This document shows positions 552 through 25,710 of a DNA stretch of 28,561 nucleotides, piece by piece. Origin of the DNA: a virus. Within the stretch, counting starts at the first letter, position 1; each line of letters begins with the position of its first letter. The DNA lies in IMG/VR virus record IMGVR_UViG_3300005265_000157, positions 1-28,561 of that record, one strand, 5' to 3'. The translations under genes were made by a program, and so were the position numbers. The notes under the pieces were generated by a model. It was not told where the DNA came from. It worked only from the letters and a program-made list of their open reading frames with translations, and did no database searches.

Positions 552-1211
552 TTAATCTCCTTTTCCGTCTCCATTTACAAATAATTTGTAATTATTTTGT
601 GCGCCAAAAAATATAGCACCACTTCCTAACGCTACATCGTTGCCAATTATTGTTGCTGGGTCTGTAGTTTTTCCACTTTCATATTCGTGCATCTTAAAAT
701 ACTCTGCTCCAGTATTCACATTGAACTCAAGAGAGTTGGAGTCTTCATTAACAGATATTTTCCATCTATTATATAAGCCGAGATATACGGAAGATTTACC
801 CATGTGAAGAGGTATTCCAGATGTTGTCTGTTGCCAAGCTACTCCATAATTAGGAAACCCAACCAATGGGACGTATGTGGTTCCATTAAGATAAGCAATC
901 TTCATTATGTTATCTATATCACACCACATCTTAAATTCGTTATTCCCACCAAAAAATATAGCCGCTCCGTTCATCTGAACATTATCAGAAGCAAAAGCTC
1001 CATTAACAAACGTAACCCTTAATGCTTGGGTTTCATCATCTGTTATAGAATGTAATGTCATTCCAGAGTCTTGATTATTTATCATATCTGGCTGGTCATC
1101 TACATATAATCTTAGAGAACCTTCATGTATTCCATCTATACTTTTCCTTCCGCTGAATAGACCTACCCATAAACGTATAAACGGTTCTATACTAAAATAT
1201 TTTCTTCTCAT
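552..1211 (-). CDS. Probable tail fibre/appendage protein with three internal repeats
   Basis: This 219-aa protein starts at ATG 1211, sharing a TAATG with the stop of the upstream gene, with GGAG nearby. I do not recognise a named family. Three copies of a short repeat are visible at about residues 78-102, 137-161 and 192-216. Each has a small hydrophobic strand (AIFFG or VYLG), then Asn, an aromatic residue, Lys and an acidic turn (for example NGAAIFFGGNNEFKMW and SGAIFFGAQNNYKLF). Such glycine/asparagine-bounded strands are typical of beta-structured phage appendages and fibre shafts. Its place between a large ejection-type protein and a fibre gene supports an appendage role. Another structural role is possible. 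Confidence 0.6.
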   Translation of the reverse strand: MRRKYFSIEPFIRLWVGLFSGRKSIDGIHEGSLRLYVDDQPDMINNQDSGMTLHSITDDETQALRVTFVNGAFASDNVQMNGAAIFFGGNNEFKMWCDIDNIMKIAYLNGTTYVPLVGFPNYGVAWQQTTSGIPLHMGKSSVYLGLYNRWKISVNEDSNSLEFNVNTGAEYFKMHEYESGKTTDPATIIGNDVALGSGAIFFGAQNNYKLFVNGDGKGD

Positions 1212-4200
1212 TAAAAATCTCCTCTGAGTTTTTTAATATTATAATCTATGTTTTCTAACTTGTCAAGTATAATCTGTTTGTTTTTACTCTTGTCCCAACC
1301 AGTCAAAACTTTTCCTTTCTCAAGTTCTCGTTTCAATCTTGAACGTTCTTTGTACATCTTGTAAATTACAGATTTAATCTGCTTGTCTTTATCAAGATGA
1401 TATGGTCTGAACCCAAATGCTACTTTAGCAAATCTCATCGGTGCTGACGGTAATGGATAACCTCCCCTCGCTTTGAGCGACTTATCATTTTTGGAGAAGT
1501 TCCTTACAAGATAATTAAGTTCTTTTCCAGGTCTCAGAAGCGATTCAAACAGGTAGTTCATTGCTCTCGGATATGTTCCTACTGGAGAGAATGGTATTGG
1601 AGATTTACTTGCTCCAAGTGTGGTTATCGGCACATCCCTGTACAACGATTTATTTTGTAATAATTCGTATATTGATTTTATAAGAGGATTGCCCATTTCA
1701 ATAGATGTAGAAGCTGTTTTGCCAATAGGCATTATTTTAGCAAGGTCAACCGACGGCAAGAAACCTTCTCCAACAACTACGTTCTTATTACCGAGCCTTA
1801 TAGGGAATCTTCCCTTCAACCATTCTGGTATGAGTTCTTCTTCAATTTTATCACTCGAATTATCTTCAAGTTCTGCTTTAAGTTGATATAATCTACTAAA
1901 TGTTTTAGGTTTTTTAACGAGTAAAGATATTTGCCTCGGTAAATTAAACCTTGTAAACGAATAAAATGGTATTAGCGCGTTAGAGAACAAAGCTCTCTCT
2001 GTATGGGTGATACCATGATTATAGTCAAAAAGTGTGTCCAGAGCCATCCTGGCTGCTTCTTCTGGGGCGTATCCTTTATCAAGACCCCACATAAATGCCC
2101 ATAAATGTCCTTGGTCTTCAACGTCCCCCATAGCCTTAGTAACCTTTGCTAAATATCCTTTCCTTCCAGCAAATACATCTCTCGCTGATTTGTACGCTCC
2201 AAAACCTCCGCCTCTTTGTATCATCTCAATTTGTGATGGACGAGTTTCCATTGACCGACCTATTCCGAGCAAACCATATTTTTCTGCAAGATGTCTTAGC
2301 TGCTCATCTGTATATTTAATGTTCCCAAGCTGTATAGGATTCTTGCTCTTCATACCAAACATTATTTTAGCTGCTCTTTTTCCAAGTCCTATATTATGCT
2401 GGTCAAACATATTTATTCCACGAGTATGCAAGAAGAATACATTACCAACAAAGTTTCTAAATACCGTGCCAGGAGAACCGAGAGCGTATCTTTTCCATAT
2501 TGAAGTATAATGAGATAATGATTTCATTATTTCAAGAGGATGTTCATATAATTGAAGCATATTACCCATCTGGTGTGCTATAGAGTTAGGCATAAATATT
2601 CTTCCTAATTCATCTTTAGGAATACCAACTCTTTCTAATACTATATCTGGTCTTTTTATTCCAATCTTACCCATAGCCTGTTCGATGGACATATAACCTT
2701 TTTTAATCATATCTCCTGTTTCGTCCGTGCTCTTCACTTTTTTCATGAAAGGTAGATACTCATCTGTGAGAAGTTCACCGAATTTGCTTATCTTTTTACT
2801 GCTTCCAGCCTTTCTTGCAAGTCCAATTATATCTTCTGCGTATTGCTTTGTAGATAACGTATTAACTTTTTTGAGAATATTATACTCTGCTTTGGTATTC
2901 GTATTTTCTATAGGTCTCGTCGCTCTTGACTTTACCTTAGCAATATATTTATCTACTTCATCTGGGGCAAACGCTTTATACCTTTTCCTATCTCTTAATA
3001 TATTCTCAAGTAATGTTCCTTCGTGTTCACGTGCTAATTGTACGAAACCAACTTCTTTTCCAGCTTTACTTGTTCCAAACTTACCAGTATTTATAGCAGT
3101 ATGCGGGAAATATCCAAGTCCATGTTTTGTTGCTATAGGCATAGATAATTGCCCAGTATTTAACAATTCTTTTTCTGTTGATTTTAAATATTTTGAAAGA
3201 TTATCATAGTATTTAACATTGCCTTTTGTCTTCAAAAGATTCTTGTCTAATACAGATTTAAGCCTATTTGCACTTTGTTTATAAGCTGCTACATCACCGT
3301 TCGCAATAGCCGCTTCCATATTTGCACCTATAAGCTTTATTTCTTTAGGCATTATATCACTCTGCAATACTTTCTTTGCATTCTCATACGCACCGTATGC
3401 ACTTGTGTATAAATCTTTATATATACCAGAAGTTTTGTTTATTCCTTTTATTAATTCTTCTGGCTCGGTTCTTGCAACAATGCCCATTATATCTGGCATG
3501 TCTTTATTTATAGAATATTCTACAAGTTTGTTTACTGGTTCGTATATTTCGTGCATTGTTATAGCACGAGGGGCTACGCCAAGCTTTGATATGTTTAGAG
3601 TGTTTGGTCGAGTTTCGCCATAAACCTTTATATCTCTTGCTGTTAAGAAACTTTTAATAGTTTTCTTATCAAAAAACTTCCTTGTTTCTTTGTTATAAAT
3701 TATATCTGGTAATTTATCGAGAAGCTTAGTTTGTGTTTTCTCTCCGGCGGACGAAGCTATTTTGTTGATATTTCGTAAATCTCTATTAGTGAATGCTTTG
3801 GCATTGAATGTTTTTACGGTTTTACCAAATGTATTAAGAAGGCTGTCTCCTTTTGTGAGTTGTTTACCTTCCTGTGCCAAATTCATAGCTCTTGTTACTT
3901 TGTTCTTTGCGAGCTGTGTCATTTGTGGTATTTTGAGTTTCTTTAATATAGAACCTCCATAATGTTTACCACCAATATTAACTATGCCTTCCTTACCCAT
4001 ATTAACATGTTTTAAATATTTTTCAGGGTCTTTTACAAGTCTTGCAACATGCTTTTCTATATCTGGGGAATATTTTATATTTATAGCCGCTGCTGTGAGA
4101 CGTGGAATATCATATCTTGACATAGTTCTTATTTTATACGGAACATTCCTCTTTATTGCGAGTTTGTGAACTATTCTCTCAAGGTCGTCTATTTTGTCTA

Positions 4201-4690
4201 TTCTTCCAACATTTAACAATCTCGAAACATCATCTACATTGTTAGGGTCAACAAAGTATTTTACACCTTTACCGATGTTTTTCTTTATTAACCTCGCTCC
4301 GTTTCTAAGTCCTATTTTAGCAACATCATCATTTAAAGATATCAAAGACTTCGCTCCGAGTGCAGCTTTGTTTGAACCAAAAGAAACATACGTTAATGGG
4401 TCTATCAACGCGTCAACACCAAACCCAGCAGTCCCTAAGCCTATTCTTGCCAAACGAGATTTTGGTCTTTTATCAATTCCAAACGCACTTCTTATCAATC
4501 CAGAACCAGTATATAACCTTTCACCTTTGTGTATCTTACGCATAGCTTTATACGCATCTTGTCCAGAAACAAGACTCGTTAATATACCTGCTGTGTAATT
4601 CCTCGGTGCGTCAACCTTGGAAAGCATTTTCATAAATGCTCCGCTGTCCACATTAGGGTCTAATTTAACGTAATGCGCTTTCCTGCTCAT
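1211..4690 (-). CDS. Large ejection/internal virion-type protein with LPD38-like region (1159 aa)
   Basis: This 1159-aa, lysine-rich protein shows two recognisable segments. Near residues 24-104 is a pattern common at the start of such proteins: an 'A-P-R-N-Y-x-A' strand, a glycine-containing helix and GFGVDALIDPLTYVSFG. Near residues 885-920 is FDYNHGITHTER followed by IPFYSFTRFNLP. That matches the 'large polyvalent protein-associated' LPD38 type, an element of phage proteins thought to travel with the DNA. No lytic transglycosylase motif was found by eye. The frame starts at ATG 4690, 26 nt inside the preceding frame, with no clear Shine-Dalgarno, so translation may depend on coupling. An in-frame TAA eight codons upstream rules out a longer start. 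Packaging inside the capsid and ejection into the host are inferred from size, position and family. Confidence 0.7.
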   Translation of the reverse strand: MSRKAHYVKLDPNVDSGAFMKMLSKVDAPRNYTAGILTSLVSGQDAYKAMRKIHKGERLYTGSGLIRSAFGIDKRPKSRLARIGLGTAGFGVDALIDPLTYVSFGSNKAALGAKSLISLNDDVAKIGLRNGARLIKKNIGKGVKYFVDPNNVDDVSRLLNVGRIDKIDDLERIVHKLAIKRNVPYKIRTMSRYDIPRLTAAAINIKYSPDIEKHVARLVKDPEKYLKHVNMGKEGIVNIGGKHYGGSILKKLKIPQMTQLAKNKVTRAMNLAQEGKQLTKGDSLLNTFGKTVKTFNAKAFTNRDLRNINKIASSAGEKTQTKLLDKLPDIIYNKETRKFFDKKTIKSFLTARDIKVYGETRPNTLNISKLGVAPRAITMHEIYEPVNKLVEYSINKDMPDIMGIVARTEPEELIKGINKTSGIYKDLYTSAYGAYENAKKVLQSDIMPKEIKLIGANMEAAIANGDVAAYKQSANRLKSVLDKNLLKTKGNVKYYDNLSKYLKSTEKELLNTGQLSMPIATKHGLGYFPHTAINTGKFGTSKAGKEVGFVQLAREHEGTLLENILRDRKRYKAFAPDEVDKYIAKVKSRATRPIENTNTKAEYNILKKVNTLSTKQYAEDIIGLARKAGSSKKISKFGELLTDEYLPFMKKVKSTDETGDMIKKGYMSIEQAMGKIGIKRPDIVLERVGIPKDELGRIFMPNSIAHQMGNMLQLYEHPLEIMKSLSHYTSIWKRYALGSPGTVFRNFVGNVFFLHTRGINMFDQHNIGLGKRAAKIMFGMKSKNPIQLGNIKYTDEQLRHLAEKYGLLGIGRSMETRPSQIEMIQRGGGFGAYKSARDVFAGRKGYLAKVTKAMGDVEDQGHLWAFMWGLDKGYAPEEAARMALDTLFDYNHGITHTERALFSNALIPFYSFTRFNLPRQISLLVKKPKTFSRLYQLKAELEDNSSDKIEEELIPEWLKGRFPIRLGNKNVVVGEGFLPSVDLAKIMPIGKTASTSIEMGNPLIKSIYELLQNKSLYRDVPITTLGASKSPIPFSPVGTYPRAMNYLFESLLRPGKELNYLVRNFSKNDKSLKARGGYPLPSAPMRFAKVAFGFRPYHLDKDKQIKSVIYKMYKERSRLKRELEKGKVLTGWDKSKNKQIILDKLENIDYNIKKLRGDF

Positions 4691-7600
4691 TTGTTTTAAA
4701 TATAAATAATAATGTTAAAAGTGGTATTAATTTATCTAAAGTTCTCGCAGTTGAAATTTTTCCTTTTCTTTCATATTTTCTTCTGATTTCAGAAAATACA
4801 TCTGGGTAATTTTCTTCTTTAGTTTTAGCTATTTCTCTAAGGTCATATTTATCAAGTTCAAGAAGTAGGTCAGAATTGTTGATGACATCCATAACTTCTT
4901 TTTCTATTTGAGTTATTTTTTTTGATAATTCTTGCCTGTTTGGCTTTTTGCCAAATATTCGTCTTATGAATTTATCATCTTTTATTTCTTTAGGTGCTGT
5001 ATATTTTTTAATAACATTATCTGTTATAAGCATATCTACAGCGTCTTTAACATCTTTTTTAAGAAGTATTTTATTAATTCTTTCTTTGGCTGTTTCCGGA
5101 CTCGGAACTCCAACCTCTACTCTATCAGAAAATCCATCACTCATAATATCTGCATCGCTATATTTGCTCTGCAACCATTTGAGAACTTTCCGTATAGCAT
5201 TTTCTTCATGAGCAGTCATCTTTCTTACATTAGCAAAAGCTTTTTTTTCTCTTGCGTTTTTGTTTCCTATAATAACTCTCTTTGCAAGTTCTTTGCTTTT
5301 AATATCGTATGGCTTGCTTTCAAGCTTGCTTCTCATATAATCAGCTTTCTCTTGAGCATACGATACTGCTTTTCTAACAATATCACTCAATAAAGGAGAC
5401 TTATATTTTAATTTCGCAAGTTTTCTGTCAACGTACCCAGTAGATACTGGAGAAGCCTTTTCTGATATTACGCCTCTTTTATTAGGCTCGAATACAGTTC
5501 TCTTTGTTCCAACACGTACAGGAGATATTTTAGACATTTCTGCCGTATGAAGAAGATTCTTGTTATATAATGCTCTTCGAATCAGTTTTGGAATATTACC
5601 ACTTTGAGGAATCTTTTTAGTTTTCATAAATTCTTCAAAATCTTTATACATCCCAGCAGGTCTTGCTACTCTTTCAAGTTCGTCATAAGTTATCTTTTTA
5701 TGTTCTGGAGTGTTTTCTTTATATTTTTTAATATATTTATCTTCATATCCTTCGAGAATATCAACAGGTTTTCTAATTTTATCAAGCTTCTTAATTTTCT
5801 GTGCGCGAATATATTTATAAGAGCTGTCTGGCATTTTAGCTTTTTCCATATCACTAAACAAAAGATGTCTTGCCAGTTTCAGACTTGTATCAGATGGATT
5901 TTTCATCTGCGCAAATTTCCTTAACAATACTTCATCCATTGTTCCCTTATGATAAACATCATTGTTCAATGCTTGTTTCGCAAATTCTTTAACTACAATT
6001 CTCGCTTGCAACGGAAACATTCTTTCAAGTTCTTCAACTTTAATGTTATTTACTGCGTTCTGTTGTGGTTTATACATACCACTCATTTTTCTCGTAAAGA
6101 ATCCATCGTGGCTTTCGAGATTAGCTTCGGCAACTATTCTATCAAGCAGAGTATTAAGCTTGCCATCTACACCAACGCTCCTTATGCCATTAACGTCATC
6201 AACAATACTCTTCAATGCTTTGTTAGGTACTTCCAATTGAGTATTTTCAAGTATTTTCTTTATTCTGACATCTTTATCACTCAAATTTTTCAATGTAGGT
6301 CTTCCGCCTTTTCTTATCGCATTGTATTCAGAAGCAGTCATAGGAATAGCTATTCCTATTCTATCTGGTGCTATATCTATTGGTGTATTAGCTTCTGTAT
6401 ATCTTCCTTTCGACAAAGCGTGTCTTGACAAAAATGATGTCTTGGAATCTGGGATAAATGGTTTCTTATAAGGTTTTATTGCAACACCAGCCTCTTCAAC
6501 ATCTACATTTTTATCTATATTATAACCGCGTTTTGGCTCATCATAATTTTCTTGTTTAGAGTCTGCATATTTAGCATATTCCTTTCCTGCTCTTGTAACC
6601 CTTTCGTTCTCAACGTCTTTGACTTTTTTTTCAGTATAGTTTTGAGTGTATGTTCTATCTACACCAGCCTTGCCAGTATATTTGAATTTTTCTGGATTCA
6701 CCATATAATTCTTATTATCAATAGAAACTCTTAAAACTCCATAAGGGTTCTTACCATCATGACCTTTATCTATGCTTATTCTATAATCATCTATGGTTCC
6801 ATTTTCTATGGCTTCATTTAATACAAGTTCAGCGGAAGTTTTAAGAAATTTTTTATCAATCTCTTTTCCGTCTGCGGCTTTGGTAACAGTTTTTGTAACA
6901 TCTCTCAGCTTGGCTAATGTATCTTCTAATGTAGTTTTTACTTCCGTGCTATCTAAATTGTTTATCTTAGGAAACTTTACTTTCTGATTAGTTCTCGCAA
7001 AGTGTGTTCCCTCTAATGCTTTATATTCTGATATTAGTCTGTTTATTTTATTTTCAAGCTGTGTTAAACTACTAATAGAGTGTCCAGAATAGGCAAGCAT
7101 TTTAGTATGCTTATCTTTAAATTCTCGTGCAAGTTTTATAAGTTTGCTGTTCTTAGCGTGATATTCAGCGTCGCCTGAAATGTTCATTAGTTCTTTACCG
7201 CTCATTTCAGCAAGTGTTTTCTCTCCAGATTTATTCCGAAGATATTCGCTAAATAATTTTGGTTTTTTTCTAAGCTTTTTATATGCTTTTACAAGTTCAC
7301 GTATTTTTATTAGTTCATTTATTTCAGCATTCTTTTTTGCGGCTTTAGCTATTATTAAACCAGACTGTGTTTTCGGAACTATACCTTCTTCTATATATGA
7401 TTTTGTCGTATATGGAAGTCCAGCATTTTTGGCAAACATACTAACCAAACCTGTAGGTTCATCGCCGTCTTCTGCAAACTTTGCAGCACCTATACTTATA
7501 CCAATAGTCTTTTGCTTATTAGGCTTCATATCGAACGCCTTGTGAAGCATATCTGAATATTCTTTTTTGGTAACAAATTTGTCGCCAACCATATCGACTA

Positions 7601-8102
7601 TGCCTTCAGCTTCTCCAGTCTTTGGATTTATAATATATCCAGCAAGAGATTTTCTTACAGTACCAAGTTTCTCTACTTTCGGAGATACATTTTTACCAGA
7701 TACTGTAACGATAACTATGTTTCTATTAGACTTGTTAGGAGCTTTCTTGTCTAAAGCAATATATTTAATACCTTTAGAAGACTCGTTCCATCCTGGTTTA
7801 GGTCTTATATTAAATACTGCGCCAGTATTTCTGTCAATAACGTTGCCTGTATCATCAACATCAAGCTTCATATAGCCATTGTCCGATAACACTTTTTTGC
7901 CTTTGTTATTTACTTTAACTTTTGGTTTTGATTTTGTTCCTTTATTTTCGGAGTATATTCTCCTTCTTATATTTGATTGTTTTTTTTGATTTTCTCCAAA
8001 TACTTTAGGCGGCTTTTCATATTCAATACCACCTTTGTAAATTTCGCTCCCGTCATTACCTACTACAGATAGTTTGCCGTTGTCGGATACTATGTACCCC
8101 AT
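4665..8102 (-). CDS. C-terminal part of giant ejection-type protein (1145-aa frame; true start probably by frameshift)
   Basis: The frame from ATG 8102 encodes 1145 residues, lysine-rich and mostly helical in look, ending in a hydrophobic stretch (LIPLLTLLFIF) before the stop. I recognise no enzyme motif. The ATG is unlikely to be the natural start. It lies inside a repeat domain (GTYRYIKADGKTF, then NG-KLSV) whose first 23 codons are upstream in the same frame, and a paralogous copy sits at residues 836-885 of the preceding protein. Only a weak GATAGAG precedes this ATG, whereas most standalone genes here have GGAG or GAGG. An upstream TGA closes this frame just before the candidate slip site at 8171-8177. 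The simplest reading is that this is the downstream 1168 residues of a 2,111-aa protein. Independent translation cannot be excluded. Confidence 0.7.
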   Translation of the reverse strand: MGYIVSDNGKLSVVGNDGSEIYKGGIEYEKPPKVFGENQKKQSNIRRRIYSENKGTKSKPKVKVNNKGKKVLSDNGYMKLDVDDTGNVIDRNTGAVFNIRPKPGWNESSKGIKYIALDKKAPNKSNRNIVIVTVSGKNVSPKVEKLGTVRKSLAGYIINPKTGEAEGIVDMVGDKFVTKKEYSDMLHKAFDMKPNKQKTIGISIGAAKFAEDGDEPTGLVSMFAKNAGLPYTTKSYIEEGIVPKTQSGLIIAKAAKKNAEINELIKIRELVKAYKKLRKKPKLFSEYLRNKSGEKTLAEMSGKELMNISGDAEYHAKNSKLIKLAREFKDKHTKMLAYSGHSISSLTQLENKINRLISEYKALEGTHFARTNQKVKFPKINNLDSTEVKTTLEDTLAKLRDVTKTVTKAADGKEIDKKFLKTSAELVLNEAIENGTIDDYRISIDKGHDGKNPYGVLRVSIDNKNYMVNPEKFKYTGKAGVDRTYTQNYTEKKVKDVENERVTRAGKEYAKYADSKQENYDEPKRGYNIDKNVDVEEAGVAIKPYKKPFIPDSKTSFLSRHALSKGRYTEANTPIDIAPDRIGIAIPMTASEYNAIRKGGRPTLKNLSDKDVRIKKILENTQLEVPNKALKSIVDDVNGIRSVGVDGKLNTLLDRIVAEANLESHDGFFTRKMSGMYKPQQNAVNNIKVEELERMFPLQARIVVKEFAKQALNNDVYHKGTMDEVLLRKFAQMKNPSDTSLKLARHLLFSDMEKAKMPDSSYKYIRAQKIKKLDKIRKPVDILEGYEDKYIKKYKENTPEHKKITYDELERVARPAGMYKDFEEFMKTKKIPQSGNIPKLIRRALYNKNLLHTAEMSKISPVRVGTKRTVFEPNKRGVISEKASPVSTGYVDRKLAKLKYKSPLLSDIVRKAVSYAQEKADYMRSKLESKPYDIKSKELAKRVIIGNKNAREKKAFANVRKMTAHEENAIRKVLKWLQSKYSDADIMSDGFSDRVEVGVPSPETAKERINKILLKKDVKDAVDMLITDNVIKKYTAPKEIKDDKFIRRIFGKKPNRQELSKKITQIEKEVMDVINNSDLLLELDKYDLREIAKTKEENYPDVFSEIRRKYERKGKISTARTLDKLIPLLTLLFIFKTNEQESALR

Positions 8103-10999
8103 ATCTCTATCAACATATTTTTCTTCGATAAGAAATGTTTTCCCATCAGCTTTAATGTATCTATATGTTCCTTTTTGTAGTCTGGAGGAAAAAACTCACT
8201 CTCTGATTCAATAGGATGTTCCTCATTACTAATCGGCTTTACATCAAGTTTTGTGTTAGATTGTTCTTTCTGATTTTGAGTTTTTCCTTCTACAGGTTCT
8301 GTTTTAGCTCCTTTAAATTCAAATTTACCGTTGATGCGACCGTGGAATTTATTAACTATATTACCGTCAGAATCATAAACATATAATTTGGTTCCGTTGT
8401 TATTAAGTTCATATTTATACTTCGGATTTATATCTTCTGAATCTAAAACAAATTGTTTATCTCCAACTTTAACAACTCTATATGTACCTTTATCAATGTT
8501 ATCTATTGTGTATGCTCTATTAGATATATCATCAAGTCCTTTGTATTCTTTTGGTTCAATCGTTGTACTGTCTTTTATTTCTCTTAATTTATTTTTGCCG
8601 ACACTTACAGTTCTTACTTTGGTTGTTGTAGTTGCAGATGGTTTCAAAACATCAATATGTTTTTTATAAAACGATTTCTTGATGTCTGGTTTGAACGCGT
8701 CTTCTATTCTTACATAATCAATAGTGCCATCAGAATGGACTACTGGTAAAACATTTTTGCTTATCAGCTTTTCAAATACTCTTCTTCTTTCTTTGTATGT
8801 TTTTGAATTGAAACCTTTTTTAAAATACGAATCTATAGGCTCGCCAATTATTTTGGTGTCTTGTGGATTTATATCTTCAGAAGAACTTTCATTTACTTTT
8901 GATTCCTTTGTTTCAGTTGGTTCAAATTCGTCGTCTATTATCTCTTCATCATATTCGTCTTTAGGCTCTTTTTTTGGTTCTTCTTTAACTGTTGTTTCGT
9001 TTTCATCATTTATGTCTTTATCACCGTATTCATTGCTCGTTTCTTCTTCACTTGCTTTTTTATTAAACTTATGTTCCTCAAGTTTTTTGTTTATCTTTTT
9101 GAGTTTTTCGTTTATTATTTTATTGGGATGTTTGTTGATTAGTTTAACTTCACCATTGTCATACTTTATGATGTCTCCATCATATTCTATTCCATTACGT
9201 CTATATTGGTCTTTAAGTTTTCTGTTCAATTCATATACATCTTTATCAATGTTGTTATAGTCTATATTATCTATAGCTTCCGCTATTTTACTTTCGGATA
9301 ATTTCAACTTTGGTTTTTTCTTTGGAATACCAACAACATCTCCCCTATCATAATATTCTCTGAATTTAGCAAGAGTCTTATTGATATGAGGTTGTTTTAT
9401 TATGTTTTCTGCATAGTCAAAGTCAATGTTGCCATTTTTATCTAAGAAATCAACATCTCCAGATGTATCATATCCAGCTTTCTTAACATATCGTTTGAGA
9501 ACTGTGTTTATATGTTGTGTGTCCCATTTGTCTGGACTTCCTTCCATCGCAGAATACAATTTATCTACTGTCTTATCTGCTGCACTAAATACATTAGAGT
9601 CTTTAATAACAGAATGGTCTGTGATTATTTTTCCACGTTTGTAATCATACCCAAACGGTTCTTTATTAAAATGACGTTTATAATATCTATTAAGAGTATC
9701 TGTAACTTTATTACCGTCTAATCTTATTTTACCTTTAGGAGAATTATTAAACGTTTTTGCTCTATCTAAAGCAAGTTTTGCAATTTGTTCTTTAGGTTTT
9801 AATATTTTTTTTGGTATCTCAGATAGATTAACGCCTTTGGCATTTTTTATTATTTTAAGTTTTCTTACATTACTTTCTGGGAGTATATTTTGCTTTTTAT
9901 ACCTTTTTACTTCTGCACCTTTTATTGCAGACCTTTTATTAAGTTTACCGAGACCTTCCATCCCAAGTTGAAATGCAGAATTGGCTGCCGATTCTTTTAG
10001 TATATCAAGTGAATTTTTGGCGAGAAACTTCCAGCCACTTGTGCCCTTCTCTATATGTGAACTGTGGACAATATCATCACGTATTCTTTTCTTCTCTTCT
10101 TTATCATTTATCAAAGCAGCTTTTGTCAAATCAGCTATAGGGTCAACAATTTTGCCTACAGCAGCAGGCTTTGTGAATTTAAGAGTCTGTTTCCCAAACT
10201 TTTTAAGTATCCTTCTCGGAAGAGTCTTAGAGAATATTTTTTCTGTAGCTTTCTTAGCAGTATCTGATATTGCGTTTTTAGCACCTTTTGGTATTATCTT
10301 TGGACTAAATACTTTGCCAAGAAAATAATCTTTAGTGGCTGTTTTTGCAGCGTTAGGTACAGCTCTTTTCCAATATTCTTTTTTATCATCGAAAGAGTCA
10401 ACGAGTGATTTAGCAGCTCCATAGCCAGCAAACGCCCTTGCTCCTCCTCCGAGAACACCAGCTCCAGATATAGTTTCTCCAAGCCCAGAACCGAACTCTA
10501 ATGCTTTATCAGTTATCTTAGCTCCAGTACCTTGGACTTTTTTTATGTCTTCAAGATTCTGGTTTACTTTTTTATATGCCTTTCTATATCTTTGAATAGG
10601 ACTGCCTTTTTCTTTAAATGCACCAGCTATAGCCGCTGCTGGTTTTGCAGTAGTTATCCCTTTTGCAAGACCAGTAGTGATACCATGTTTTATCAATCCA
10701 ACGTTTGCTTTTTTTGCTAATCCGACTAATTTGTTATCATCGTATGTTAATTTTTTGGCTTCTGGAGATTTCCAGAATTTTTTAATAGTTGGCTTGCCAC
10801 TATCTTTCAACATTTTATCTGCAGCAATAGAAGACACAACAGCAGACAATTTACGACCATTAGTAAAACCTTTCATGCTAGCATTATTCTTAACATAATA
10901 TTTTACTGCTGCATTAAACTGCTCCTTGGTTAAAGGCTGTTGACCTTTAAACATTGGTATTTCACTAAACTTATTTATATATGTTGTGTATTTTAACAT
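8090..10999 (-). CDS. N-terminal part of giant ejection-type protein (969-aa frame)
   Basis: ATG 10999 follows the stop of the 426-aa gene by 3 nt, with AGGG about 10 nt upstream. The protein is very basic at its N-terminus. An Ala/Gly-rich zone lies at about residues 170-200, a very acidic stretch (DEYDEEIIDDEFEP) in the second half, and near residues 836-885 there is a beta-type domain, DKGTYRVVKVGDKQFVL then NGTKLYVYDSDGNIV. The last 26 residues after the C AAA AAG heptamer (from EHIDTL) show no family likeness, while the -1 frame there repeats the domain. This probably encodes the first 943 residues of a 2,111-aa fusion with the 4665-8102 frame. By position it corresponds to T7 gp15/gp16-type internal core proteins, though I see no direct sequence similarity. 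An ejection role is inferred. Confidence 0.7.
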   Translation of the reverse strand: MLKYTTYINKFSEIPMFKGQQPLTKEQFNAAVKYYVKNNASMKGFTNGRKLSAVVSSIAADKMLKDSGKPTIKKFWKSPEAKKLTYDDNKLVGLAKKANVGLIKHGITTGLAKGITTAKPAAAIAGAFKEKGSPIQRYRKAYKKVNQNLEDIKKVQGTGAKITDKALEFGSGLGETISGAGVLGGGARAFAGYGAAKSLVDSFDDKKEYWKRAVPNAAKTATKDYFLGKVFSPKIIPKGAKNAISDTAKKATEKIFSKTLPRRILKKFGKQTLKFTKPAAVGKIVDPIADLTKAALINDKEEKKRIRDDIVHSSHIEKGTSGWKFLAKNSLDILKESAANSAFQLGMEGLGKLNKRSAIKGAEVKRYKKQNILPESNVRKLKIIKNAKGVNLSEIPKKILKPKEQIAKLALDRAKTFNNSPKGKIRLDGNKVTDTLNRYYKRHFNKEPFGYDYKRGKIITDHSVIKDSNVFSAADKTVDKLYSAMEGSPDKWDTQHINTVLKRYVKKAGYDTSGDVDFLDKNGNIDFDYAENIIKQPHINKTLAKFREYYDRGDVVGIPKKKPKLKLSESKIAEAIDNIDYNNIDKDVYELNRKLKDQYRRNGIEYDGDIIKYDNGEVKLINKHPNKIINEKLKKINKKLEEHKFNKKASEEETSNEYGDKDINDENETTVKEEPKKEPKDEYDEEIIDDEFEPTETKESKVNESSSEDINPQDTKIIGEPIDSYFKKGFNSKTYKERRRVFEKLISKNVLPVVHSDGTIDYVRIEDAFKPDIKKSFYKKHIDVLKPSATTTTKVRTVSVGKNKLREIKDSTTIEPKEYKGLDDISNRAYTIDNIDKGTYRVVKVGDKQFVLDSEDINPKYKYELNNNGTKLYVYDSDGNIVNKFHGRINGKFEFKGAKTEPVEGKTQNQKEQSNTKLDVKPISNEEHPIESESEFFPPDYKKEHIDTLKLMGKHFLSKKNMLIEIWGT
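8171..8177 (-). other. Candidate -1 ribosomal frameshift site (C AAA AAG) or frameshift lesion
   Basis: In the 969-aa frame the codons here are TAC AAA AAG GAA. Slipping back one base after AAG leads directly into GGA ACA TAT AGA, giving KK-GTYR. That matches the KGTYR of the upstream domain copy (DKGTYRVVK). The switch must fall between the TGA in the -1 frame just upstream and the TAG at 8090, and homology starts exactly at this heptamer. C_AAA_AAG resembles the A_AAA_AAG slip site used by insertion sequences and phage tail genes. I see no strong downstream hairpin or upstream SD-like stimulator. Gain of one A in the A5 run would give the same product, so a deletion or sequencing error is the main alternative. 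Confidence 0.6.
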
Positions 11000-13170: not shown

Positions 13171-15537
13171 TTATTTATAATTTCGTGTTAAATCACCTTT
13201 CGGTTTTAATTCATATCCGAACGAGCTTATTTCAACAGGAACTCTTCCAGATAACATTACGTTACACACAGTTCCTCTGCAAGGAATCGGTGCTCGGTCA
13301 TTAAGCAATTTACTATCGAGTTTACCAGCTGATAATACCCAACCAGAGCCATCTTTATTTCCAACTCCATAGTAATCGTTTTTATATTCTAAGTTGTATT
13401 CGCCACCTCGAAGATTAGGTACATGAACAATATTGAAGTAATGCCACCTTTTCACCGTTAGTGGTGTTCCAAGATTGGTTTCAGCGAAAGTGATAATCCA
13501 ATCATATCCTATATTATCAACATCTTTCTCTATATTGTCAAGTACAGACAAACCATATATTAAATCAGTCGGCTCGCTATCAGGAGGATTAGTTGCTCCA
13601 GCGTCAGTAACCATAAGAACTCTTCCAGATTTATTATCTATAGAATCAACTATTTCTTCATCTGTTGACAATATTGATGTTACATTATAATTAGCAAATT
13701 CCCACACATACCATGTGAACTTACTATCATTATCAGTTTTTGTCTGGTCGAATACTATAGCATGAGGATAAGCACCGTTGTCATCTGGATTAACCAAGAA
13801 TATAGCTATATTCCTTTCTTTATCATATATAGCTCTTGTTAAATGGATTTTGCTTATATCTATTCTGCTGAATGTGTTAGGTTTATCTGGGGTAAATGTA
13901 TTTCCGTTAGTCCACCAGTTTTTTACTGGCATTGATATATTAACCATATCTCCACCAATAGTATATCTATATACTCCGTTTCTCGACATCCAATACATAT
14001 ATTTTCCATTATCACATATCGCCTTCTTGCCAACGCACCCTATTCCATGGAAAGAGTCAGACTCTGTTATCATATCGCTGTTGTCAAGAAACTGTAGCGT
14101 GCTGAACGAATTATTTTTGAAAACGAATAATCTCCCCTTATGAACATGTAAACACGTCACAGGCAAGCCATCATTTTTCCCAGTAAGTATATAAAAAATA
14201 CTTGGGGAACTATCTGGACTATTTATTTTACTGTATCTTATTTCTTGAACTGGTCTTGTTATAACAGCACTTTCATTTATACAGCTCTCGGCAAGTAAAT
14301 ATATAGTCTTTATTATGAATTTATATTGAGAATAATAATCATCAAGATATTCAGGCTTGCCATCTTGAGTATATATATTGCCAGTATTTCCGTTGTTAGA
14401 AATATCGGTAATTGTTAATCCAGTATCTCCACTTATGATTGGTAATAAAGATATAGACGGTGAAGAATTTCCATAGTTTGTAAAGCTAAAAGAAACAAAA
14501 TCGAGAGAATCATTTATAAAATCAGCGTCGTATTCAAAAAGCTTAATATGATTATCATAATTTATACGCATATATTCTTCCAATATAATGGAATTACTAT
14601 ATTCTACACCATCAACAATACACACCATTGTATGCTTGTATTTATCGTTTATAAATTCGGACGTATATACAACACTACACCATTTTCCTTCTATACCATC
14701 TATTTCTGGAGGAAGTGTAACTTGTAATGTTTTCATAGAACTCTCATTAATCATTATTTTACATTGAAAATATTGTTCTACACCTGCCCTGTATAATAAA
14801 TCTAATGAAAAATCAATATAGTTATTTTCATCCATTAATGTAGCAATATGAAAATTTAACTCTGGAACAGCAGTTCTGTTTTTATCACAATTGAATCTAA
14901 ATTTTGTGGAAATAATAAACGACCTTGTTGCAGCAAAACTTTGACTGTTAGGTATTATTATTTTGCATGGAGTTGTATTAGTACTTTTTATTCTTATGAC
15001 ACCTTTTCTGTCTTTCGTACTTAATATATTATCAACGCCGTATGTTCTGTTTTGATTGATAATGTTTATTATATTGCTTCCTTGAGTGTTTTCTATATTA
15101 TCTTTAGTAAGCAAAACTATATCATTTTTGACTCCATCAACCATTATCTGGTCAAGTTTGCTTCCAGAATATATCATCCTGTCTTTATATGTTTCTATTA
15201 TTTCTGGAACAATAGGTTTTGTATTATCAAACTCAACTTGGTCTCCGAGATATTCATCTGCTATACCATCGGTATATTCAGAGCCTTCCGCATTATCTAT
15301 TTCTGCACACAAAGAATAGTTTATTCCATTGTTAGACGCTCTATATATTCTTATTTTATCAGCTTCTGTATCGTCTGATTTATTTATGTTAGATACTTTT
15401 ATTGCGTATTCTTTTAACTCGTTGTTATAATTTTCTATAGCGTTCTTTTTAATTATTGTTACATGAGTAACTTCTTCTATTGGGTTTCCATCTGGAGACC
15501 CAGTATCAGAATATATAGACTTTGAAATCTCCATCAT
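13171..15537 (-). CDS. C-terminal part of tail nozzle/stabilisation protein (788 aa)
   Basis: The frame from ATG 15537 encodes 788 residues carrying the body of a gp12-like tail nozzle, the part that closes the short tail and contacts the host. Recognisable landmarks are an RIYRASNNG strand (63-71), TYKDRMIYSGSK (117-127) and a propeller-like block at about 455-540: VHKGRLFVF, then SFHGIGCVGKKAI, then YWMSRNGVYRYT, then VNISMPV. The end, ELKPKGD, is also typical. In relatives I know, an N-terminal GG-x-N strand and a NPSP strand precede RIYR in the same chain; here they lie in the upstream frames 16939-17187 and 15672-16937. No Shine-Dalgarno precedes ATG 15537, an in-frame TAA sits 9 nt upstream of the first ATG, and the frame differs by +1 from the preceding one. 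It may be made by coupled re-initiation, by frameshifting, or not made as a separate chain. Confidence 0.75.
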   Translation of the reverse strand: MMEISKSIYSDTGSPDGNPIEEVTHVTIIKKNAIENYNNELKEYAIKVSNINKSDDTEADKIRIYRASNNGINYSLCAEIDNAEGSEYTDGIADEYLGDQVEFDNTKPIVPEIIETYKDRMIYSGSKLDQIMVDGVKNDIVLLTKDNIENTQGSNIINIINQNRTYGVDNILSTKDRKGVIRIKSTNTTPCKIIIPNSQSFAATRSFIISTKFRFNCDKNRTAVPELNFHIATLMDENNYIDFSLDLLYRAGVEQYFQCKIMINESSMKTLQVTLPPEIDGIEGKWCSVVYTSEFINDKYKHTMVCIVDGVEYSNSIILEEYMRINYDNHIKLFEYDADFINDSLDFVSFSFTNYGNSSPSISLLPIISGDTGLTITDISNNGNTGNIYTQDGKPEYLDDYYSQYKFIIKTIYLLAESCINESAVITRPVQEIRYSKINSPDSSPSIFYILTGKNDGLPVTCLHVHKGRLFVFKNNSFSTLQFLDNSDMITESDSFHGIGCVGKKAICDNGKYMYWMSRNGVYRYTIGGDMVNISMPVKNWWTNGNTFTPDKPNTFSRIDISKIHLTRAIYDKERNIAIFLVNPDDNGAYPHAIVFDQTKTDNDSKFTWYVWEFANYNVTSILSTDEEIVDSIDNKSGRVLMVTDAGATNPPDSEPTDLIYGLSVLDNIEKDVDNIGYDWIITFAETNLGTPLTVKRWHYFNIVHVPNLRGGEYNLEYKNDYYGVGNKDGSGWVLSAGKLDSKLLNDRAPIPCRGTVCNVMLSGRVPVEISSFGYELKPKGDLTRNYK

Positions 15538-15721
15538 ATAATGTTATGGCGCAAAAGCTTTGGTCCTTACTGGCAAAATCATTCCCATTTGTCCAATATT
15601 TATCTTGCTTTATGCTCGGTATATATCCTCTGACTTCGTATAATCCAGATTTGTTTTTACCATTTGAATCTTTAGTTATAATCCTTACTGACTTCGTATA
15701 ATCCAGATTTGTTTTTACCAT
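15506..15721 (-). pseudogene. Out-of-frame continuation of the middle nozzle gene
   Basis: This short open frame repeats the end of the 421-aa protein (RIITKDSNGKNKSGLYEV) and then continues with RGYIPSIKQDKYWTNGNDF to a TGA at 15506. The shared part arises because both frames read through the 58-bp duplication. With one copy of the repeat, the 421-aa frame would run straight into this tail, giving 457 residues ending at 15506 and overlapping the 788-aa start by 32 nt. I therefore read it as the displaced C-terminus of the middle nozzle segment, not as an independent gene. Confidence 0.75.
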
Positions 15722-15746
15722 TTGAATCTTTAGTTATAATCCTTAC
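15631..15746. repeat. Perfect 58-bp tandem duplication inside the nozzle gene
   Basis: Positions 15631-15688 and 15689-15746 are identical over all 58 bases and directly adjacent. Because 58 is not a multiple of three, the second copy shifts the frame and creates the TAA that ends the 421-aa protein. Perfect identity indicates a recent event, or one kept identical by recombination. A single base of microhomology is seen at the borders. Confidence 0.97.
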
Positions 15747-16937
15747 CATAAAATCATCTGTAAGGTTGCCATCAGTTAATTCTTTGTTAGAGTTAGTAGG
15801 AGGGATAGTTTTAAGAAATACAGAATCATATTCATTCCTATCTCCTATTATTATTGCTCTCTTATTTGATTTTTGCTTTTTAACTCTCTTGACAACATTC
15901 AAATCAAGTATTATATCATCATCAGATAATATCTTCTCAACCATATACATTTGACCAACAAACGGCTTCTTTTTCAATGGCGCACTCAGAAGAGCCATTT
16001 TAGAACTCATATCATAATCAATTATCCACCTTGATTCAGAATTTCTTTTATTAGATATCGTATCTTTGTATGTATCTTCTTTTACATCATCATTAAAAGT
16101 TTTGCTGTAAAGTGTAATCTTTCTACCAAAATAATCATCTGAACCAACATTTCCAAGATGTATCCATTTTTTATTATTATGTTTGTTGGCTACTTTAACT
16201 TCCGTTAAGTCTTGGTCTGTTATATAACCTATTTCATAATCACCATCTTCTATATAATATTCTTTTGATGATGTTATCTGGTCTTTATTTATATATACAT
16301 CATCTTCTGTTGTTGTTTGTATGGATAATGCTATTTCATTAGATGATTTTAAATAACTTATAGAACTTATTTTTCTTGAGAATAATATATCTTTATCAGA
16401 GTTAGAACCGTATGTTCCATAAGATGTAGATGTTATGTCTAATGAGAAGAATATGTATTTACCAATAAGACTATCTACCTCAGCAAAATCTTGATTTATG
16501 TAAACAGTTACTATAGCGTTATATACTCCGCCGCCGCCTCCTCCGCCGCCGCCGCCGCCGCCGCCGCCGCCTACGCCACTGACGACAGGTGTTCCGAGAT
16601 TTTCACTCGTTGCATTTCTGGTAAACTTTCCTTCTTGCCTTTTGTTTATTTCAACTTTGTTGCTTATAGGGGACGGGTTACTCTCAACATCTTCTTTTGA
16701 GTTGTAATATGTATAAGCATAAGAATACTCAACACCTGGCATTAATGCGCCCTCAGAGCGTATCTGCCGTATTTCTGGTGCGTTTAATGGTGGAGATATC
16801 CCGACATCGTGTACCTTTATTCCAGTATCGCCATCTGGTACTGCCTTTAAAAATTTGTTTCCGTCTGTCGCAAATAATCTTCCATTCATCTTCGCAACAG
16901 ATATTAAACTATTACTGTTGCTTTTGAGTCCAATCAT
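15672..16937 (-). CDS. Middle part of tail nozzle protein with poly-glycine insert (421 aa, truncated by duplication)
   Basis: ATG 16937 follows the TAA of the 82-aa frame after one base (TAA A ATG). There is no good Shine-Dalgarno; the nearest AGGA is about 20 nt upstream. Residues 14-92 match the early part of nozzle-like proteins: VAKMNGRLFATDGNKFLKA, then VGISPP, then an EYSYAYTYYNS strand and ESNPSPIS. Residues 123-137 are 15 consecutive glycines. After that comes a ~280-residue beta-rich region that I do not recognise and that seems inserted relative to nozzle proteins I know. The last codons read into the second copy of a 58-bp tandem repeat and stop at a TAA; with one copy the chain would extend to 457 residues. 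It should act with the frames on either side as one nozzle. Whether functional protein is made is uncertain. Confidence 0.7.
   Translation of the reverse strand: MIGLKSNSNSLISVAKMNGRLFATDGNKFLKAVPDGDTGIKVHDVGISPPLNAPEIRQIRSEGALMPGVEYSYAYTYYNSKEDVESNPSPISNKVEINKRQEGKFTRNATSENLGTPVVSGVGGGGGGGGGGGGGGGVYNAIVTVYINQDFAEVDSLIGKYIFFSLDITSTSYGTYGSNSDKDILFSRKISSISYLKSSNEIALSIQTTTEDDVYINKDQITSSKEYYIEDGDYEIGYITDQDLTEVKVANKHNNKKWIHLGNVGSDDYFGRKITLYSKTFNDDVKEDTYKDTISNKRNSESRWIIDYDMSSKMALLSAPLKKKPFVGQMYMVEKILSDDDIILDLNVVKRVKKQKSNKRAIIIGDRNEYDSVFLKTIPPTNSNKELTDGNLTDDFMVRIITKDSNGKNKSGLYEVSKDYN
16527..16571 (-). repeat. Poly-glycine microsatellite (15 GGN codons, mostly GGC)
   Basis: Fifteen glycine codons in a row, mainly GGC, form a GC-rich island in an AT-rich genome. 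Slippage by whole codons would change linker length without breaking the frame. The tract separates the NPSP-type region from the unrecognised insert, so it probably acts as a flexible linker. Confidence 0.95.
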
Positions 16938-16938
16938 T

Positions 16939-17187
16939 TTATGTAAAGTCTATTGTTCCTGTACGTATTTTTCCGTCAGATGAAATGTATTCAATCGAAT
17001 CCTTAACTCCTGACCCAGTAAATACATTAAGCTTTTTTATCGACGGTCTTGTAGTAAGACTACCAAGTTTGTCAAAGAAAATATTTTGCGCGTAAAGTAA
17101 CTGATTAGGTGAAGCGTCAAACTCATCTCTGTTATTGACCACACCACCTATGTTACGAAAGTTTGCATGTATCTTACCTTTAGGCAT
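16939..17187 (-). CDS. N-terminal part of tail nozzle protein (82 aa)
   Basis: ATG 17187 shares TAATG with the stop of the adaptor gene, and AGGA lies about 10 nt upstream, so coupled translation is likely. The sequence has the classic opening of nozzle-type proteins: NIGGVVNNRDEFDASPNQLL, then YAQNIFFDKLGSLTTRPS. In relatives I know, this is the first strand pair of a much longer chain. Here a TAA ends it after GTIDFT. The next nozzle segment starts 2 nt further on in the +1 frame. Dropping one T of the TTT at 16945-16947 would join the two frames (IDLHKMIGLK). An 82-aa product would lack the propeller and tail-contact parts. It is either a split subunit or the 5' end of a broken gene. Confidence 0.7.
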   Translation of the reverse strand: MPKGKIHANFRNIGGVVNNRDEFDASPNQLLYAQNIFFDKLGSLTTRPSIKKLNVFTGSGVKDSIEYISSDGKIRTGTIDFT

Positions 17188-17825
17188 TAGTACGGGAATC
17201 CTGTTTCGCTAAATGGCTGAGTTACTTTTTGCTCTGTCGTGTCGTAATCGCCATACATAGCGTCTATTGTTTTCTTTAAAAGATAATTATATTTTTGTAT
17301 CCACATCTGCTGACTTGTTCCAGTCTCTTCTTCATAATCAAGTCTAAACCAATTTATCAGCGACATAAATGCACTTATAGCACCAGCAGGAATAGGTAGA
17401 TAATCATTTGCGCCTTCAACCAACTCAGGAGAACAATAATATTGAATAGTAAACTTTGTATCTTTGTCTTTCGGAGGATTTATCTTTATGATACGTTTAT
17501 AACCATCTGTCTTATTACCTACCATCCCTGCTTCGTGCCATTTAATTCCTGTCTTAGTCTGATGACTTTCAAGAGGTAAAGCGTCCTTCACTACATTCCC
17601 GTCTTCGTCATAGATAAACTCTATTCTTATAACATCATCTGGTATTTTTGCGTAACCATCAGATGCAATATAATTTATTTCTGCCGTTTTACGAGACCAT
17701 GTGAATCTTCCGTTAAGATATATTTCTCTTAATGCGGAATTTATCCAATCAACAATATTATCGTTAAGAGTTGTATCTCTAAGATACTTCTGCTGATTAT
17801 CTATTATCTCCTGAACTTTCATCAA
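17187..17825 (-). CDS. Head-to-tail adaptor (T7 gp11 / tail tubular protein A-like)
   Basis: This 212-aa protein starts at ATG 17825 with GAGGT upstream, inside the last 29 nt of the zinc-finger gene. It opens with an amphipathic helix pair (QEIIDNQQKYLRDT, then VDWINSALREIYLNGRFTW), followed by beta strands (YAKIPDDVIRIEFIY, then YKRIIKINPPK, then FTIQYYCSPELV). A helical end follows (IPAGAISAFMSLINWFRLD, then a glutamine-rich helix). This alternation of helices, an IPDD strand and a carboxy-terminal helical bundle is typical of adaptors that ring the portal and receive the nozzle. The gene's position directly before the nozzle frames agrees. Assignment is by fold pattern and position, since the sequence is too diverged for a motif call. 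Confidence 0.65.
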   Translation of the reverse strand: MMKVQEIIDNQQKYLRDTTLNDNIVDWINSALREIYLNGRFTWSRKTAEINYIASDGYAKIPDDVIRIEFIYDEDGNVVKDALPLESHQTKTGIKWHEAGMVGNKTDGYKRIIKINPPKDKDTKFTIQYYCSPELVEGANDYLPIPAGAISAFMSLINWFRLDYEEETGTSQQMWIQKYNYLLKKTIDAMYGDYDTTEQKVTQPFSETGFPY

Positions 17826-20789: not shown

Positions 20790-20963
20790 TTAGACTTTCT
20801 GTCCTTCGCTTCTTATCAATTCTCTAATAGAATTTGCTTCCATTAATTTTCTCTCGAATATTTTCCCAACTGCTTTCAAGCCTCTGGCTTCGAGTAATTT
20901 AGCTTCAACTTCATCTTTCCTTCCTTGACCAGCAAGATGTTCTGCCAATAAATATCTTTTCAT
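20790..20963 (-). CDS. Small protein between portal and scaffold (57 aa)
   Basis: I place the start at ATG 20963, which shares TAATG with the portal stop, as at three other junctions in this window (1211, 17187, 26454). A longer version starting at ATG 21017 would add 18 residues and overlap the portal by 55 nt, but its GAAGGA motif directly abuts the ATG with no spacing. The product is a short, charged helical protein (MKRYLLAEHLAGQGRKDEV, then ARGLKAVGKIFERKLME) without cysteines or membrane segments. Small proteins in this slot occur in many phages and may assist assembly. I cannot assign a function. Confidence 0.6.
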   Translation of the reverse strand: MKRYLLAEHLAGQGRKDEVEAKLLEARGLKAVGKIFERKLMEANSIRELIRSEGQKV

Positions 20964-23900
20964 TATTTCTTCGTCAATATCTTCACAAAAATATTCCCAT
21001 CCTTTTGTGTTTGCCATTCCTTCAAGGCAACTTGCTCTATCAAGTCGCTTATTTGCTTATTACCTTCATTCCAAAAATTACTTTTAAGCCAATCGCCACT
21101 CTTCCAACCACCAAGACCACCTATTCCTGCGCCTATTCCTGCACCTACAAGTGGATGTTTTTTATTAACCAATGCACCAACACCTGCTCCAACCAACGCT
21201 CCAGTCAATGGATAAGCCCATCCGTAAGCTTTATTGTTTGGATTCGAATACATATCTACAACTTTACCACCAAGATTCATAGCACCCTTGCCAGCTTTCT
21301 TAGTATAATCATACATTGTATCAATAAAATTGGCGTTCGTTTTCTTTTGCGATTGATTGTTTTTAGTTGTATTGTTCTGAGGGGGCATTGTATTATCAGT
21401 CTGTTCTACTTTCATGTTAATGTTTTGCGCCCCCCCAGAGTTATTATTTTGAAGATAGTCAGGTTTGACATTATCTATATTTTGCGCTGATAACTCTTGT
21501 GTCCCAGACGCAGGAGCAACAGACATATTGTTACTTTTTAGCTTAGGTATGTTACTTATGGCATTACCACCTATTGATGTCAACAAATCAGTACTAAGAT
21601 TAACGGCTTCATTTGCTAAATTTTGTTTAGCATGTTGTGGGTCTAATGCCACGCTAAGAGAGTATTCTGGAATTTTGTTTGTAATAGGATTGTTCAACAC
21701 AGACCAGTTTGAAGCAACACCTTTAGCTGTGCTATTAACAAAATTTCCACCTGGTACTTTACTAATATTTTCAGCAAGTTTTGACACCATAGGTTTTGTT
21801 GCACCTTTTACTGCATCTGTAGATACTTTATCAAGATAATTAAAACCATTTTTGATTCCAGATATGCCTTCCTTAGCTGCGTTTACAGCATCTGTTCCTA
21901 AGTTCTTTGCCCCTTCTATAACTGGAGCAGAAGCACTTTTCATTACGTCGCCTATTGGTGTAACAGCAGACTTTGCAATATCGGTTGCTGGCTTTATTCC
22001 ACTCATAATACCAGACATTAGTCCAGAAGCTCCAGTTGCATTTGCAGCAGCGCCTGCCGCATTAGCAACAGCACCTCCAGCGGATGATAGTGCACCAGTA
22101 GCAGCTGGCATAGCTGCAGAAGCTGCTGACATAAGTGGAGAAGCAAGACCAGCCGTAGCTGCTGATAATCCAGCAGTACCAAGACCTATACCTGCGTCTT
22201 TCCATGTAGAACCTGCTTTTCTTCCTTTAATCAAATCACCAGCAAGCTTGGGCAGAAATCCAACAATAGGTAATGTTCCGATTATTTCTCGTGTTAGCTC
22301 CGCTATATTAACAACTGGATAAGCATTTCCTGGGGTCTGAGCATCTGGGCTTACGTCTTGTAATCCCTGCGCGATATTAAGGAAATTAATAAGCTGTTGT
22401 CTTAATGCAGGTTCTCCTTTCCAAGTGGACGAACCAGCCATTGGTTTATATACAAAATTATGTCCTATAATATTTTCTGGTAATACTCTTTTGAATATCC
22501 TTTGACCACCGTCTTTATATGTAGGTATAAGTTGTGGTTCACTTATATATTGCTGTATCAAACTGCCTGTTTGCGTCATTACTTCGCCCCAAGATTGGTC
22601 AACAAGCATTTCTGTTAAAGCAATTCTTCCATCAGAAAGCATTAACATATCTGCTGCGCCTTCGGCACTTAGTTGTTGACCTGGCGCAGAGCTGACTTGT
22701 GGACTACCGCTTGTCTCTTTAGCGAATGTAATAATCGTATTTAACTGGTTGAAAGTAGCTCCGCGACTGTCAGGTATTTGTAGCGGACGTATATCGTCAT
22801 GGTCAATAACATTAAACTTGCGACCTGGATATAACTTGATTGTTTTTTCATTTACGAGGTCAGAGGTGTCTCTTACTGTAAATACGTTGTTGACGGATAT
22901 ATTACCATTATCTATCGCTACATTGAGAGTATCATTTGCGGCTTTATGTAAATCTCTTACTGGTGAAATCCAGCCTTCTCCATGACAGGAACCTGGGAGA
23001 CCAAGTGTTTTGAAAGATACGTATGGTTTTTTGCCATGATAATATTGATTTACCCCGTTATATACAACAACACTTTCTTCCGCTATTTCTATGCACTTCC
23101 TATTTGATGTCCAACATCTGTAAAGTAAAACGTTTCTTGAACCAGTTATTTCACCATACAATTCTTGAACTTTAGTAACACGTTTGCTATTAGCCATACT
23201 TATGGCTTTTTCAACATTTGAATATCTACCAGAAACAATAGGCTTACCTTCTTCATCTATTCCTATAATCTCTTTTTTATGTCTTCTAAGGTATTCTGGA
23301 CTTACATATATTCTCTCTATAACCCATCTCGCTGATTCAATTGAAGTAGCACCTGGTTCTATAAAGAAATTAAACGGATTTATGAAACGTAGATATGGCT
23401 GGTCTTTTGTTACTATTTTCTTAGTATCTGTTTTAAGTATCTTATTACCTTGTTCATCTGTAATTATCTTCCTGTACTTAACTGTTTCCTCTTTAAACTC
23501 CCAACCTGTTCCAACGATAGCTTCTGTGAATATACCCATAGACATATATACATCTATAGCAAGTTGTTTTATCTTAGCTTTATCAAGCATGTGCTCCATA
23601 AGAGCACTCATATCTTCTGCGGCATTCGCTGCTTCTTCACTATCAGACGTTATTGGTATAACATCTGTTTTCATTGGAAATCCGTATAATCTTGCTGCAA
23701 ATGTACATACAAGAGAATACGAGAATGGTATATATAACTTTGAATTAAGTGGGTAGCTTTGTGCGTTTTCTCTTATTCTTCTAAAGTCTTGAAGCGATTT
23801 CTTCCAATCAACATGGAGACTTTTCATATTAGCGTCGCCGCTCTGAAACCATGCTGTTATTTGACTGGCTAATACTCTATCCGCTTCTTCTTTGTTTATA

Positions 23901-23974
23901 TCTTCTCCAGAATACGCATCGTCTAAATATATATCATATTTCGCATCTGCTTCTAAAATATTCTGCTGTTGCAT
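20963..23974 (-). CDS. Portal protein with ~430-residue Ala/Gly-rich and glycine-zipper C-terminal extension
   Basis: Residues 1 to about 575 form a complete portal: an N-terminal helix region with AWFQSGDANM, SKLYIPFSYSLVCTFAARLYG (79-99), a wing with YLRFINPFNFFIEPGA (194-209), the stem/clip part with HGEGWISPVRDLHKAANDTL (331-350), and a crown-like segment ending near the TREIIG helix. Twelve copies would form the DNA gate. After that comes an unusual extension: Ala/Gly-rich (590-710), polar (740-810), Gln/Asn-rich (840-880), and a glycine zipper at 919-958 (ALVGAGVGALV, then VGAGIGAGIGG). Glycine zippers pack against membranes or each other, so this looks like a portal fused to an ejection-type or internal protein. 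ATG 23974 follows the terminase stop by 1 nt without a Shine-Dalgarno. A G7 run in the linker is noted separately. Confidence 0.85.
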   Translation of the reverse strand: MQQQNILEADAKYDIYLDDAYSGEDINKEEADRVLASQITAWFQSGDANMKSLHVDWKKSLQDFRRIRENAQSYPLNSKLYIPFSYSLVCTFAARLYGFPMKTDVIPITSDSEEAANAAEDMSALMEHMLDKAKIKQLAIDVYMSMGIFTEAIVGTGWEFKEETVKYRKIITDEQGNKILKTDTKKIVTKDQPYLRFINPFNFFIEPGATSIESARWVIERIYVSPEYLRRHKKEIIGIDEEGKPIVSGRYSNVEKAISMANSKRVTKVQELYGEITGSRNVLLYRCWTSNRKCIEIAEESVVVYNGVNQYYHGKKPYVSFKTLGLPGSCHGEGWISPVRDLHKAANDTLNVAIDNGNISVNNVFTVRDTSDLVNEKTIKLYPGRKFNVIDHDDIRPLQIPDSRGATFNQLNTIITFAKETSGSPQVSSAPGQQLSAEGAADMLMLSDGRIALTEMLVDQSWGEVMTQTGSLIQQYISEPQLIPTYKDGGQRIFKRVLPENIIGHNFVYKPMAGSSTWKGEPALRQQLINFLNIAQGLQDVSPDAQTPGNAYPVVNIAELTREIIGTLPIVGFLPKLAGDLIKGRKAGSTWKDAGIGLGTAGLSAATAGLASPLMSAASAAMPAATGALSSAGGAVANAAGAAANATGASGLMSGIMSGIKPATDIAKSAVTPIGDVMKSASAPVIEGAKNLGTDAVNAAKEGISGIKNGFNYLDKVSTDAVKGATKPMVSKLAENISKVPGGNFVNSTAKGVASNWSVLNNPITNKIPEYSLSVALDPQHAKQNLANEAVNLSTDLLTSIGGNAISNIPKLKSNNMSVAPASGTQELSAQNIDNVKPDYLQNNNSGGAQNINMKVEQTDNTMPPQNNTTKNNQSQKKTNANFIDTMYDYTKKAGKGAMNLGGKVVDMYSNPNNKAYGWAYPLTGALVGAGVGALVNKKHPLVGAGIGAGIGGLGGWKSGDWLKSNFWNEGNKQISDLIEQVALKEWQTQKDGNIFVKILTKK
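21430..21436 (-). repeat. G7 homopolymer in the portal extension
   Basis: Seven consecutive G (minus strand) encode Gly847-Gly848 in the Asn-rich linker. Slippage here would keep the portal core but replace or cut off the glycine-zipper end. Such G-tracts are uncommon in AT-rich coding DNA and are used as switches in some bacterial genes. Confidence 0.7.
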
Positions 23975-25667: not shown

Positions 25668-25669
25668 TA

Positions 25670-25684: not shown

Positions 25685-25710
25685 TCGAAGGGTATCAAGG
25701 ATATAAGGAT

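Follow-up and report, generated by a model that had tools for sequence, protein, structure and literature searches.

The 969- and 1145-aa ORFs of virus record IMGVR_UViG_3300005265_000157 very probably specify portions of a single protein. Domain homology crosses the ORF border and codon usage switches near 8173, which means that the sequence forms, or formed until recently, one gene of about 2,111 residues. The two ORFs likely represent one giant virion (ejection) protein gene of an SU10-like phage, whose frame is broken at or near a run of five A (A5, 8172-8176) through an error of one base in sequence or assembly. The window analysed comprises the entire virus record (28,561 bases), and its late genes are located on the minus strand.

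The broken giant gene has the 969-aa ORF (8090..10999, minus strand) as its 5′ part and the 1145-aa ORF, taken from its annotated ATG (4665..8102, minus strand), as its 3′ part; the two overlap by 13 nt. A first-pass annotation of this DNA had related them by a −1 shift, and on the reverse complement they indeed occupy frames 0 and 2. As had been described, a TGA (8198-8196) precedes the opening of the 1145 frame; the ATG follows 31 codons later, and these open codons (8103..8195, minus strand) read GTYRYIK and onwards from 8171, thereby encoding the first beta hairpin of a domain. The heptamer C AAA AAG, which contains the A5 run, was located as reported at 8171..8177 (minus strand; 0-frame reading TAC AAA AAG) and is the likeliest place of the frame break. 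A slip at AAG joins 943 and 1168 residues into the 2,111-residue product that had been calculated earlier, and the last 26 residues of the 969-aa ORF (8170-8093) form a 0-frame tail that is out of frame with the remainder of the gene. Codon usage gave the best switch points at 8155 and 8173 (log scores of 9.68 and 9.64, respectively), and the break point lies at or adjoining the A5 run, near 8173. A T6 run (8189..8194, minus strand) was considered as a second place for an indel; its log score was 5.3, and it is disfavoured because codon usage gives the A5 run an advantage of about 4.3 log units.

The repeat homology on which the earlier reading was built was reproduced. The −1-frame segment starting at 8195 matched residues 835-885 of the 969-aa protein with a score of 96, and none of 2000 shuffles reached this value (38 ± 5.4). 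Taken by itself, the portion before the ATG scored 52 against the 969-aa protein (1 of 2000 shuffles as high), and the 0-frame tail gave no repeat match in this protein, its score being reached by 651 of 2000 shuffles. The repeated unit is a small beta domain, with a first copy at 8285..8533 (minus strand; residues 823-905 of the 969-aa ORF) and a second copy at 7968..8171 (minus strand) in the 1145 frame. The two copies matched each other in phmmer with an E value of about 1e-4, and the strand order was alike in their AlphaFold models. The model of the second copy had a mean pLDDT of 74.6 (about 85-90 over the domain), and that of the first copy was weaker (mean pLDDT of 59.7). A fold search with the beta domain gave no match at E ≤ 0.001.

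The annotated ATG 8102 cuts the second copy of this domain, as had been claimed. In the predicted structure, strands 1-2 (model residues 11-24) would precede the ATG, which corresponds to residue 32, and a start at this codon would thus leave this copy of the domain without both strands; the other copy is complete. This loss argues against a two-gene arrangement, in which the 1145-aa ORF would be translated from ATG 8102 and coupled to the stop codon TAG 8092-8090 after the gene had genuinely been split in the past. The overlap of the two ORFs is well placed for reinitiation, and other gene pairs in the record overlap by 20-26 nt. However, the coding signal of the 1145 frame begins upstream of ATG 8102, the −1 frame being coding-like for approximately 20 codons before it, and the ribosome site of this ATG is weak, a point on which the sequence bore out the earlier remark. 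Two separate genes are therefore regarded as an unlikely explanation.

Programmed −1 ribosomal frameshifting at C AAA AAG, which would yield the 969-aa and 2,111-aa forms in a set ratio, had been the favoured reading of the first-pass annotation. The tetranucleotide A_AAG is a known bacterial −1 slip sequence (PMC5009743) and is present at the site, and the heptamer sits where domain homology and codon usage place the frame switch. The heptamer is also rare: among in-frame 105-nt stretches of the genome, C_AAA_AAG occurred in 1.0%, AAA_AAG in 4.6% and A_AAG in 25%. However, the tandem slip motif has the form X_XXY_YYZ (PMC5009743), and C_AAA_AAG departs from it in X, so that the P-site tRNA would need to pair with CAA; because A_AAG is preceded by C_AA, only one of the two tRNAs can re-pair. 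A stimulatory structure is usually placed 5-9 nt past the slip site (PMC5009743), whereas the sole nearby hairpin, a weak one (−7.3 kcal/mol, z of −2.5), begins 22 nt after the heptamer. The earlier statement that no stimulatory hairpin was seen accordingly holds for the usual distance and not for the downstream region as a whole. No Shine-Dalgarno-like stretch was found at the usual place upstream of C AAA AAG. One-base errors tend to fall in A runs, and the coincidence of a slip motif with an A run therefore favours neither frameshifting nor error.

The known cases of frameshifting in dsDNA phages comprise lambda G/GT, gene 10 of T7 and T3 and the coat genes of Listeria phages (PMC5009743). 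The present locus resembles them in that its two ORFs stand in a −1 relation and meet at a lysine slip motif, and differs from them in lacking an X_XXY_YYZ motif and a stimulator at the usual distance; moreover, the join here coincides with the beginning of a domain, which would be cut by the second ORF's ATG. No paper linking ejection proteins with frameshifting was found in open-access full text.

As judged from its sequence, the phage is of the SU10-like short-tailed type, with Pfam matches to the SU10-type portal (PF23899, 3e-13), capsid (PF17236, 6.9e-22) and adaptor (PF24175, 2.6e-14). The adaptor gene (17187..17825, minus strand) is situated before the nozzle gene, and the ORFs past it are, in order, 82, 421, 788, 298, 426, 969, 1145 and 1159 aa long. 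In SU10-like phages, the nozzle would be expected in one gene, whereas in this record it is distributed over the 82-, 421- and 788-aa ORFs. This assignment follows from matches in the first and last of these ORFs to a profile built from the nozzle proteins of seven relatives. The 82-aa ORF (16939..17187, minus strand), representing the nozzle N-terminus, matched HMM positions 43-99 (E of 3.8e-5), and the 788-aa ORF (13171..15537, minus strand), representing the C-terminal part, matched positions 204-313 (E of 2.3e-12). The 421-aa ORF (15672..16937, minus strand) had no significant HMM match of its own and is assigned to the nozzle middle by its position and coding frame. Approximately 15 CCG triplets at 16528-16571 encode a long glycine stretch in this 421-aa part.

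The nozzle frame switches near 16941, 15680 and 15521, the last break being located at about 15521-15545. The second switch corresponds to a perfect tandem duplication of 58 bp (15630..15746, a feature to which no strand applies), and 58 is not a multiple of three. Across 80 matched records, the nozzle was split in the window only and was contained in one ORF in the other 79 of 79. No split loci were observed for TerL (0/84), MCP (0/83), portal (0/11) or the homologue of the 1159-aa protein (0/75). The relatives used for the nozzle and 1159-aa comparisons were recovered by alignment-based scans at about 25-30% identity. The three nozzle breaks in this record, set against the intact nozzle of the other matched records, indicate an unusual load of indels; since the three breaks are not at homopolymers, they do not point to a single type of error. 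In the window's late genes, a frame-tracking model found no unexplained break beyond those of the nozzle and the 969/1145 pair.

Because a nearby tail gene is broken three more times, including once by a perfect 58-base duplication, the 969/1145 break is much likelier to be a sequence error or a lesion than a programmed slip. The duplication is inexplicable by decoding, and the three independent breaks in the nozzle gene, together with a motif that is not X_XXY_YYZ and the want of a stimulator at the usual spacing, led us to set aside programmed frameshifting, which we regard as very unlikely. In its fuller version, this reading takes the A5 run as correct and has −1 frameshifting at the start of the repeated beta domain produce a giant ejection protein in two forms, a short one of 969 aa and a long one of 2,111 aa; it is judged highly improbable. 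The first-pass annotation had itself named a missing base as an alternative, and this alternative is the better reading of a record that carries three other frame breaks. The missing base in the A5 run would be an error of the record, and the 969/1145 break would then be the fourth of a set with the three indel-type breaks of the nozzle gene.

In SU10, the nozzle forms a structural part of the tail and serves genome delivery (PMC9509320), and on this ground the thrice-broken nozzle gene is best read as an error in the record, a defective phage being less likely. Were the mutations real, the record would represent a phage that is defective, or a provirus in decay, with loss of both the nozzle and the giant 969/1145 gene. 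The structural genes of the record carry four frame breaks, as such a history would produce, and the recent 58-bp duplication is compatible with replication slippage. However, the other long late genes of the record are all open with a strong coding signal, and the scanned proteins of the record included no recognisable integrase or host gene; genuine lesions are therefore considered rather unlikely. Errors of sequencing or assembly in metagenomic records resemble the present case in that the break falls in an A run and the same record carries further breaks along with a short, perfect tandem duplication, whereas among the genes tested in the other records of the group, none shows a break of this kind.

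Relatives of the 969- and 1145-aa ORFs were sought in several collections, from which near-identical records had been left out. No relative of either ORF was detected by a peptide-pattern search of viral contigs, among 31 related virus records, by phmmer over 3.5 Mb of fetched loci or among 50,697 phage records, and peptide patterns gave no relative of the 1145-aa ORF in bacterial genomes. Neither ORF had a match in PHROGs or Pfam, and matches in the PDB were at chance level only. Single-protein scans with the capsid and TerL, and a TerL motif scan, found nothing.

The ejection role that had been assigned to the product was retained in part: a location flanked by the nozzle and 1159-aa genes is consistent with an ejection protein, and neither the 969- nor the 1145-aa ORF has sequence homology to a known one in PHROGs, Pfam or the PDB. 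Five different ejection proteins are contained in SU10 heads and released from them; their presumed tasks are wall degradation and tail extension (PMC9509320). The record shares with SU10-like (Kuravirus-type) phages the SU10-type portal, capsid and adaptor and a cassette of large proteins past the nozzle, a layout also observed in the relatives. It differs in that the 969/1145 ORFs are without a detectable relative, and only the neighbouring 1159-aa protein has relatives. Since the 2,111-aa product has no homologue of its own, we infer from gene position that it may be one of the SU10-kind ejection proteins.

The neighbouring 1159-aa ORF (1211..4690, minus strand) encodes a giant ejection-type protein with many relatives (373 in one scan), and it is one ORF both here and in the relatives. 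Its family is characterised by the motif PFY[ST][WF]xR[KF], and among the best 34 relatives listed, the proteins are single ORFs of 816-2,367 aa, some of which reach the contig end. An ORF of 2,111 aa is thus not unusual at this place, given that the relatives of the adjacent gene reach 2,367 aa in a single ORF. A LysM-like stretch was found in the 1159-family protein of one relative, and the family profile weakly matched LytE in the PDB. The family is widespread and apparently unnamed; it has no PHROG or Pfam match, and its profile showed a weak match to PDB 9k3a, ‘Tail protein’.

Several further features of the record were noted. The portal ORF (20963-23974) encodes 1003 aa, and portals in the best-matching relatives have 592-628 aa. 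The portal part stops near residue 548 and is followed by about 450 Gly/Ala-rich residues, which hold a glycine-zipper stretch at residues 924-956. A direct repeat of 154 nt (70-223 and 337-490, 79% identical) lies within the record's terminal ORF. The stretch at 25487-25941, of about 450 bases before TerL, is without coding signal and contains a 10-base repeat, AAGGAATGAC, in 3.8 copies at 25705-25741.

Were the frameshift programmed, it would be, to our knowledge, the first case in which frameshifting sets the proportion of two versions of an ejection protein. The finding calls instead for caution in the reading of such joins in virus records: where two frames meet at a lysine slip motif, the motif means little until the other genes of the record have been checked for indels, and this is illustrated here by the neighbouring nozzle gene, an essential gene that is broken three times.
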